Shown here in pieces: positions 29,084-32,026 of a stretch of 64,000 nt of DNA (positions within the stretch are counted from its first letter, which is position 1; the number at the start of each line of letters is the position of its first letter). The DNA is from Roseinatronobacter thiooxidans (GTDB lineage Bacteria; Pseudomonadota; Alphaproteobacteria; Rhodobacterales; Rhodobacteraceae). The stretch lies in assembly GCF_001870675.1 (NCBI RefSeq), contig NZ_MEHT01000009.1, positions 62,001 to 126,000 on the forward strand. Reading direction: 5' to 3'. A program made the position numbers and the translations under genes. Under the pieces are notes generated by a model. That model was not told the origin of the DNA and ran no database searches. It worked only from the letters and a program-made list of their open reading frames with translations.

Positions 29084-32026
29084 ATGGCGATGGACAAGAA
29101 TTTTGACGCGACAACCGCCGAGGCGCGCATTGTCGCCCTGTGGGACCGCGAAGGCGCATTTGCAGCAGGTGCGAACAAGCGCCGCGATGATGCCTTCAGC
29201 ATCATGATCCCGCCGCCCAATGTGACCGGCAGCCTGCATATGGGCCATGCTTTCAACAACACGTTGCAAGATATTCTTGTGCGCTGGCACCGGATGCGGG
29301 GCTTCGACACGCTCTGGCAACCCGGGCAGGACCATGCAGGCATTGCCACGCAGATGGTGGTCGAACGCGAATTGGCCAAAGAGGGCAAAAAGCGTACCGA
29401 TTTCACCCGCGAGGCGTTTCTTGCCAAAGTCTGGGAGTGGAAGGCGCAATCCGGCGGCACCATCATCGGGCAGTTGCAGCGCTTGGGCTGTTCTCTGGAC
29501 TGGTCGCGCAATGCCTTTACCATGTCGGGCGCGCCCGGTGCCCCTTCGGGGGAAGAAGGGAATTTCCACGATGCGGTGATCAAGGTCTTTGTTGATATGT
29601 ATAACAAGGGTCTGATTTATCGTGGTAAACGACTGGTCAACTGGGACCCTCATTTTGAAACTGCGATCTCTGATCTGGAAGTCGAGAATATCGAGACGGA
29701 CGGGCATATGTGGCATTTCAAATACCCGCTGGCAGGTGGCGCCACCTACCGCTACATCGAGAAAGACAAGGAAGGCGCTGTAATCGTTGATGAAATGCGC
29801 GATTACATTTCCATCGCCACGACACGGCCAGAAACCATGCTGGGCGATGGCGCAGTGGCGGTTCATCCATCGGATGAACGCTATGCGCCAATCGTCGGCA
29901 AACTATGTGAAATCCCTGTTGGGCCGAAAGAACACCGCCGGTTAATCCCGATCATCACCGATGAATACCCCGACCCCTTGTTCGGCTCTGGTGCCGTGAA
30001 GATCACGGGCGCGCATGATGCCAATGACTATGGCGTGGCAAAACGCAGCGGAATTCCGATGTACCGGCTGATGGACACGCGCGCACAGATGCGCGCCGAT
30101 GGTGCCGCTTACGCCGAGGCTGCCGCGATTGCGGGGGCTGTGGCGCGCGGCGAGCGGACATTGTCCGAGGCAGAGGCCGATGCGCTGAACCTTGTCCCCG
30201 ACCATCTGCGCGGGCTGGACCGCTATGCCGCGCGCAAGGCGGTGATTGACGAGATCACTGCCGAAGGGCTGGCGGTGATGACTGTTGCCTCTGACCCGCG
30301 CCTTGGCGCGGCGGCTGTGAAACCCGCCCCGGCCACCGCGCCGGGGCCTCTCGGCCAAGAGGTCCCGGATCAGGTCCGGGACGCGCCTGTGCCTTTGGTC
30401 GAGGAAAAGAAGATCATGCAACCCTTTGGCGACAGATCAAAAGTTGTGATCGAGCCGATGCTGACCGACCAGTGGTTTGTCGATGCGGAGAAAGTCGTGG
30501 GGCCAGCGCTGGACGCCGTGCGTTCGGGTCGTGTGAAGATCATGCCGGAATCGGGCGAAAAGACCTATTACCACTGGCTGGAGAATATCGAGCCTTGGTG
30601 CATCTCGCGCCAGCTCTGGTGGGGGCATCAGATTCCGGTTTGGTATGACGAAGACGGAAAAATGTACTGCGCTCCGACTGAAACTGAAGCGCAAGACATG
30701 GCGCTGGGTAAAAGATTGACGCGCGACCCCGACGTTCTCGACACATGGTTCTCCTCTGGTCTCTGGCCTATTGGTACGCTGGGATGGCCGGAGCAGACGG
30801 ATGAGCTGCAAAAGTATTTCCCGACCAGCGTGTTGGTCACCGGACAGGACATCCTGTTCTTCTGGGTCGCGCGCATGATGATGATGCAGCTGGCGGTGGT
30901 GGATCAAATCCCGTTCCACCATGTCTATCTGCATGGGCTGGTGCGCGATGCCAAGGGCAAGAAGATGTCCAAATCCTTGGGCAATGTCGTCGATCCTTTG
31001 GAAATCATTGACGAATATGGCGCGGATGCGTTGCGTTTCACCAACGCGGCGATGGCCAGCCTTGGAGGTGTTCTGAAACTCGACACGCAACGCATTGCGG
31101 GGTACCGGAATTTCACCACGAAACTGTGGAATGCCTGCCGCTTTGCCGAGATGAACGGGGTTTGGGAGGGGCATGCCACCCAAAGCGCGCCGCCCGCCGC
31201 GCAAGCGACTGTGAACCGCTGGATCATCGCGGAAACCGCGCGGGTGCGCGAAACCGTTGATGCGGCACTTGCCGAATATCGGTTTAACGACGCTGCCCAA
31301 GCGCTGTATGCCTTTGTCTGGGGCAAAGTGTGTGATTGGTATGTGGAATTTGCCAAGCCCCTGTTCGATGGCGAAGACGCCGCCGAGACACGCGCGACAA
31401 TGGCATGGGTGCTGGACCAGTGCATGGTCCTTTTGCACCCGATGATGCCGTTTATCACGGAAGAACTCTGGGGGCTGACAGGCCAGCGCGACAAGCTGTG
31501 TGCCCATGCCGACTGGCCCGAATACGGGGCCGAGCTGGTCGATGCCGAGGCCATGCGCGAAATGCGCTGGGTGATCGGGTTGATCGAGGGGGTACGCTCT
31601 GCGCGCGCGCAATTGCGGGTGCCGGTGGGGTTGAAGCTGAACATGGTGCAGCTTGATCTGGACATGCAGGGCCGTGCGGCATTGTCGCGCAACATGGCGC
31701 TGGTGACAAAGCTTGCGCGAATCGCATCACTGGAGGAAGTCGGGAGCCTGCCCAAAGGCTCGATCACTGTGACGGTCGAAGGGGGCACGTTTGGCCTGCC
31801 GCTGGAAGGGGTGATCGACATCGCCGCCGAGCGCGACCGGCTGGAGAAGACCTGCGCCAAGGCTGAAAAGGAACTGGGCGGAATTGAGGGGCGCTTGCGC
31901 AACCCGAAATTCGTGGCCAGCGCGCCTGATGAGGTTGTGGACGAGGCGCGCGCGCGCGTGCTTGTTCTGACGGAAGAAATGGCGCGCTTGCGCGCGGCCA
32001 TCACGCAACTGGACAGCGTGGCGTAA
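29084..32026 (+). CDS. valS: Valyl-tRNA synthetase (with in-frame palindromic insertion)
   Basis: 980 residues. Class I synthetase with the HIGH-equivalent HMGH (in [14 protein letters not shown], near residue 50), the CP1 editing domain (about 200-400), KMSKS at 627-631 and a C-terminal coiled coil (about 900-975) that contacts tRNA. The chosen ATG gives a start at [20 protein letters not shown]. Residues about 414-434 are a Pro/Ala-rich insertion encoded by a DNA element with three consecutive hairpins. It lies between the editing domain and the [20 protein letters not shown] segment, presumably on the protein surface. Confidence 0.96.
30327..30382 (+). repeat. Three-hairpin palindromic element inside valS
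   Basis: Three adjacent inverted repeats: CCCCGGC / GCCGGGG (30327-30346), CCTCT / AGAGG (30347-30362) and GTCCCGGA / TCCGGGAC (30362-30382). Together they read through in frame as a Pro/Ala/Val-rich linker in ValS. The dense dyads contrast with the flanking coding DNA, which suggests an inserted palindromic element. Confidence 0.7.

Follow-up and report, generated by a model that had tools for sequence, protein, structure and literature searches.

Palindromic REP-like repeats recur in frame at one variable loop of valyl-tRNA synthetase in Rhodobacteraceae

How does a cluster of inverted repeats come to lie, in frame, within the gene for an essential aminoacyl-tRNA synthetase, and is it kept there because it is useful or because it does no harm? 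The question is raised by valS of Roseinatronobacter thiooxidans, in the 64,000-nucleotide stretch of contig NZ_MEHT01000009.1 that was analysed (the window). Palindromes inserted in frame within conserved genes are familiar from Rickettsia (RPE) and from the palindromic elements of Wolbachia. The valS insert fits a protein-coding palindromic element of this kind: the palindrome keeps the reading frame of a conserved gene that is intact, and relatives have another loop at that place. Its sequence differs from that of the Rickettsia and Wolbachia elements, and here one site is occupied in many genera.

The product of valS has the Pfam domains tRNA-synt_1, Anticodon_1 and Val_tRNA-synt_C and matches T. 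thermophilus ValRS (1gax, E 3.2e-178). When the genomes of the genus were searched with ValRS, this genome (G000) returned one full-length match. A preliminary description of the window had reported three back-to-back dyads in valS. All are present, at 30326-30382; the extent first given, 30323-30390, is correct to a few bases, and the residues, 414-434, to one or two, with the dyads running from P413/A414 to D432. They lie inside the intact reading frame, as had been stated, and are translated as a Pro/Ala-rich linker. Two GYCCCGG hairpins with CCTC..GAGG in between make up the dimer, here called type A (Table 1). The core overlaps each hairpin by one base and is also found in dispersed copies of the dimer. 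The proposal of an in-frame insertion was right as to the frame, which is kept, but the insert replaces most of the native loop and is not added to an unchanged sequence: there are 28 codons between DPRLG and PLVE, compared with 13 in the native loop.

Table 1. Coordinates of valS and of the parts of its palindromic insert, numbered from the first letter of the window.
Feature	Position	Strand	Basis or remark
valS (valyl-tRNA synthetase), intact host gene of 979 aa	29087..32026	+	ORF, Pfam domains, 1gax match
AAACCC immediately 5' of H1	30320..30325	+	outer element part or native loop codons
Type A palindromic dimer, REP-like and read in frame	30326..30382	+	sequence; dispersed copies
Hairpin H1, 8-bp arms, 6-nt loop, GCCCCGGC-CACCGC-GCCGGGGC	30326..30347	+	
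Core, CCTCT/AGAGG inverted repeat (30347-30351 / 30358-30362)	30347..30362	+	
Hairpin H2, 8-bp arms, 5-nt loop, GTCCCGGA-TCAGG-TCCGGGAC	30362..30382	+	
GCGC 3' of H2, outer flank, tentative boundary	30383..30386	+	similar to CGCG, which flanks several copies in congeners

The density of dyads had been judged far above that of coding DNA. This is borne out for the dyads themselves, as two disjoint 8-bp stems arose in only 0.17% of 20000 synonymous-codon resamplings of the same peptide (p 0.0017), but not for folding energy: RNA spanning 30310-30400 folded with a z of -1.35, and 23 of 200 dinucleotide shuffles folded equally well or better. Known structured RNAs were rejected as an identity for the insert, the Rfam matches to tRNA-Sec (21.4 bits of 47) and P13 (18.9 of 70) being below threshold and taken as chance. 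In an AlphaFold2 model of ValRS (25 sequences; mean pLDDT 76.9, pTM 0.69) residues 418-431 form a coil with pLDDT below 50, flanked by a helix at 379-390 and a strand at 439-443. The conserved residues 444-461 likewise have pLDDT below 50, hence low confidence is not peculiar to the insert. In the 1gax alignment, query residues 390 to 451 map between chain residues 325 and 347. The insert is a Pro/Ala-rich, charged loop that is modelled as disordered. Elsewhere in the protein, the ValRS alignments of many congeners break at about 523-543 of the window valS, which suggests a second length-variable segment.

Close relatives with a readable loop mostly lack the linker, contrary to the outcome by which the preliminary description would have been refuted. 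A ValRS match at E 0.001 was obtained in 36 of 37 genomes of the genus, in a few of them to other synthetases only; of 30 returned loci, 27 had a readable loop. Type A is present in four of the 27 (G000, G018, G041 and G014), and 20 have instead a loop of 13 codons starting RKL or RKP. The other three (L027, L028, L040) differ; two or three of them contain a different palindrome, type B, the arms in L028 being 6 bp. Two contigs, those of L044 (G022:C200) and L133, start right after the valS loop (query ~439-441), as if the assembly had broken at a repeat.

The family was surveyed with 149 genomes, one per genus, of which 140 matched an 88-aa piece directly downstream of the loop. Of the 139 sites outside the window, 126 were parsed by script (127 with the window), eight were read by eye and five were unreadable, leaving 135 usable. 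Type A occupies the loop in nine of these genera (G000, G150, G132, G124, G102, G145, G144, G106, G078) and type B, which is GTAG-type, in four (G063, G116, G160, G170), as well as in the congeners G008 and G052; 122 of the 135 have neither. A CGTC-type pair, type C, sits at the same loop in one named genome (L071). Arms of at least 8 bp occur in 14 of the 127 parsed loops, compared with null means of 1.8 when codon order is shuffled and 2.2 when synonymous codons are resampled (200 rounds each, maximum 6). Eight of these 14 loops are type A and three are type B (in G063, also type B, the arms are 7 bp); L217, L234 and L270 are neither. A palindrome that matches no defined type, CGTCTGACGCCCGTCAGACG, was seen in the long valS loop of L217/L298 (G133). 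The named loci analysed were the best 80 of 587. They include 44 readable loci from Rhodobacterales, whose organisms partly overlap the survey, and among these are L071, with its type C pair, and L086, which has type A-like hairpins in reversed order; L069, L079, L084 and L124, whose stems cover the conserved ITAEGLAVM codons or lie immediately 5' of these, were left out of the count. Outside Rhodobacterales, no 8-bp stem was found in the loop of the 24 readable loci (of 35) among those best 80. What had been offered as a single case comparable to the Rickettsia elements is comparable, but it is one among many at the same valS site.

The type A dimer is also dispersed in the genomes that carry it, and the second copies foreseen in the preliminary description exist: the window genome has 10 full dimers by pattern and 17 BLAST matches. 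Full dimers number seven each in G018 and G041, four in G014 and three in G048, giving 31 in five of the 37 congeners; the other 32 have none. The backward control gave no match in the five dimer-bearing genomes and one each in three others. Across the family, dimers were found in 20 of 149 genomes, 12 with at least two copies and eight with one, the single-copy genomes being no higher than the backward control, in which 12 genomes had one to three matches. G145, a single contig, has 25 full dimers. Fifteen were examined, namely the valS copy and 14 intergenic copies, and by ORF heuristics, without annotation, 13 of these 14 adjoin the 3' end of a gene. By the same heuristics, four of five non-valS copies examined in the window genome are intergenic, three of them beside a 3' end, and one (L051) lies in a 431-aa ORF of doubtful reality that has no Pfam match. 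The outer flank, read outward, is mostly GGC in 30 half-elements of G145 and is variable in 31 half-elements of the genus.

The filling of the valS loop by types A and B is significantly linked to genomes in which the respective repeat is dispersed. Among genera with readable valS, those with at least two type A dimers are filled in seven of 11 cases, the others in two of 124 (p 8e-8); when the valS copies are subtracted the figures are 6/10 and 3/125 (p 2e-6). Within the genus, four of five dimer-bearing congeners are filled and none of the other 22 readable ones (p 3e-4). The association has exceptions in both directions. G106 and G078 have a type A-filled valS and no match to the dimer pattern in the genome, and in G072, G101, G157 and G168 the loop is unfilled although dimers are present; G062, with 27 dimers, had no valS match at the cut-off. 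Type B hairpins are present in 44 of 149 family genomes, and the four filled genera are among the 41 readable carriers (p 0.008); 37 carriers are unfilled, one of them with 155 matches. In the genus the hairpin GGTGCGTG is most abundant in G052 (103) and G008 (74), both filled with it. G043 (67) and G003 (57) are also rich in it and unfilled, and G022 (65) is unreadable; the association (p 0.017) includes the valS copies. The genome of L071 (G201) has 30 copies of the type C hairpin, which is CGTC-type, and 20 of the 30 form a single array of 5.3 kb (C22:55709-60985).

The Rickettsia comparison of the preliminary description is sound as an analogy, but nearer kin are the CGTC- and GTAG-tagged REPs, as they are described in the available part of PMC3733652. 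According to that text, intragenic copies encode 20-30 amino acids, tRNA synthetases that contain REPs are mentioned for X. oryzae, E. litoralis and S. alaskensis, the synthetase not being specified there, and two Xanthomonas have different REPs at about the same site in recB. CGTC REPs, as presented there, and type A have in common stems of 8-9 bp, loops of 4-5 nt and head-to-head dimers; H2 fits these dimensions and the 6-nt loop of H1 is slightly longer. Both are dispersed mainly beside the 3' ends of genes, lack a dedicated transposase and have some copies in ORFs. Their cores look alike by eye (CGGGCTTGACCCG). They differ in that the described CGTC REP stems start with AT, whereas type A stems start with GT or GC (one extra hairpin in G106 starts with AT). 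The tag may be another difference: those REPs have a terminal CGTC (or TGTC/CCTC), while the outer tag of type A, when read inward, is CGCC in most half-elements of G145 and varies among congeners, CCTC standing on the inner side. The inner tail is CCA in the former and CTC in type A. Type C, with CGTCATCCTCGGG, is closer to the published CGTC REPs, and types A and C may be distant kin. Type B resembles GTAG REPs/REPINs: its hairpin adjoins a GTAG or CTAC in G170, G160, G063, G052 and G008, though not in G116, and with paired hairpins in G170 and G063; it is absent from the valS of the window genome. No match to the Y1 transposase (PF01797) was found in the five congeners that carry the type A element (G000, G018, G041, G014, G048), and a RAYT was rejected as the mobiliser. 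Nor was a Y1 match found in G052, G008, G043, G022 or G003, despite dozens of matches to GTAG-tagged hairpins in each. A literature search, judged by titles or the opening of abstracts, returned no paper on palindromes in valyl-tRNA synthetase. Intragenic REPs are already known; what is new is that they recur at one ValRS loop. The recB precedent, as given in PMC3733652, concerns two species, whereas the valS site is occupied in 13 of 135 genera by several palindrome types in an aminoacyl-tRNA synthetase.

These observations are probably explained by repeated in-frame insertion, filtered to one frame, into an exceptionally permissive ValRS loop, with tolerance rather than benefit as the cause of retention. 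On this view a REP-like dimer, of a kind that is dispersed and non-coding, would have landed in frame in the variable loop before the conserved MQPFGDRS and would have displaced most of its 13 native residues. The copy would persist because the peptide encoded in the retained frame (PAPAxx..), which is Pro-rich, charged and disordered, falls in a loop that is freely variable anyway, and ValRS would tolerate it. In other Rhodobacteraceae the same loop would have been filled repeatedly by the palindromic families resident in each genome. The copies would arise by transposition-like insertion through a putative enzyme, perhaps since lost, and would be retained through tolerance and frame filtering.

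An alternative, which we consider unlikely, is that one or a few old insertions were followed by many losses, or that segments of valS recombined between species and genera. The copies do share their position, the frame of H2 and a similar peptide: H2-type hairpins read (V/A/I)P-(D/G)-Q in all 14 valS cases. H1 departs from its usual reading in G078, and in L071 the first of the two type C hairpins is read differently. This uniformity need not mean descent, because the same frame is used in unrelated genes, which favours frame filtering. In L354 (G168:C33, ~1501-1566) a type A dimer lies between Oxidored_nitro (76-470) and PCP_red (526-570) of a bchB-type gene, so assigned by Pfam, and in L007 (G000:C8, 1501-1531) a half-element in a long aldehyde dehydrogenase ORF, directly after the best Aldedh stretch (63-495), is read APAPAPGPLA. 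A profile search of 18 genomes, biased toward valS by its construction from valS inserts, gave valS for the eight best matches listed and bchB for the ninth; the matches listed include the valS copy from 10 of the 12 genomes that are filled. Other matches fall in long open frames, for example of 1319, 759 and 710 codons (12 of at least 30 loci inspected).

The gene tree also bears on descent. A FastTree phylogeny of 122 ValRS rows, made with the loop omitted, requires 13 changes for its 13 type A rows and six for the six type B rows. With 40 rows, chosen by hand to take in close empty relatives, a single type A clade is rejected by the AU test (p-AU 1.9e-44), as is a clade of the four congeneric type A rows (3e-35), and starred branches force 12 changes. 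Change counts of this kind cannot separate gain from loss, and the gene tree is compatible with exchange of a short segment. Third-position identity among the filled congeners is 55-60%, and not raised, in the 20 codons upstream of the insert, and recent recombination was rejected on this ground as the source of their copies; in the 20 codons downstream it is 60-90% (90% for G018/G041), which leaves room for a short exchanged tract. Occupation of the same site by types B and C and the way in which filling tracks resident repeats also speak against descent or exchange. In their favour, AAACCC abuts H1 in seven of 13 type A valS copies, in four genera. Native AAACCC codons occur in six of 115 unfilled family loops, KP in 19 of 115 and in none of 23 unfilled congener loops, and GGGTTT lies beside the stem in one of 31 congener half-elements. 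AAACCC may thus be an element flank, native codons or the mark of a shared origin, which weakens the case for repeated insertion and strengthens that for descent or exchange; as KP is found in no unfilled congener loop, the four congeneric copies, at least, may go back to a common origin or to exchange of a segment.

Somewhat less probable still is that the hairpins are kept for a function, such as an mRNA structure at the domain boundary or a DNA or RNA site, so that the loop would be the preferred place of a useful palindrome. Several palindrome types recur there, and the stems are conserved. In the four congeners two of 32 stem columns vary, compared with four of 11 loop and nine of 26 spacer columns, and the two form a compensating change from T-A to C-G in G014, double and non-synonymous. 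Among 10 distinct valS rows, 97.5% of H2 cells are paired, a level reached by none of 500 shuffles, and four of the eight pairs have changed on both sides. Third positions in the four congeners are 81-100% identical in the insert, compared with 59-69% gene-wide. However, both main stem variants are present among intergenic copies, so the covariation of H2 may come from different source copies; a difference of source copy, gene conversion and selection could each account for the conserved stems, and the data separate none of these. Against a function stand also the 122 of 135 genera without type A or B, the 24 readable loci outside Rhodobacterales (among the best 80 of 587) without an 8-bp stem, and the unexceptional folding energy.

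Insertion directed by a mobiliser that prefers something in the DNA of the valS loop is improbable, although it would meet a difficulty of plain tolerance. The valS copy is the sole in-gene copy of the 15 examined in G145, and tolerance does not easily explain why seven of 11 readable dimer-bearing genomes are filled. AAACCC before H1, native in some unfilled loops, could be read in the same sense. On the other side, several palindrome types use the site, native loops differ widely and a non-systematic look noticed no motif common to filled sites. The last alternative, a Pro/Ala linker with coincidentally palindromic GC-rich codons, is scarcely credible: chance yields 8-bp stems in about two of 127 loops, but the dispersal of the same dimer architecture in the genome and the codon nulls, with the two stems at p 0.0017, rule it out.

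A bolder interpretation is possible, but held only tentatively: the loop before MQPFGDRS would be a true hot spot of Rhodobacteraceae, to which palindromic repeats from two or more unrelated superfamilies (GTAG-like and CGTC-like) are directed or in which they are selected, the palindrome being repeatedly co-opted. It would serve either as mRNA hairpins at the boundary of the editing domain or as an encoded linker, and exchange with resident intergenic copies would perhaps keep the stems intact.

Repeats within genes are usually taken for scattered accidents. Here one site in an essential enzyme is occupied repeatedly by different repeats, mostly in genomes that carry those repeats, and this amounts to a natural replicate experiment. 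The valS site of the Rhodobacteraceae makes it testable how REP-like elements move without a RAYT, and whether their copies within genes are tolerated or used.
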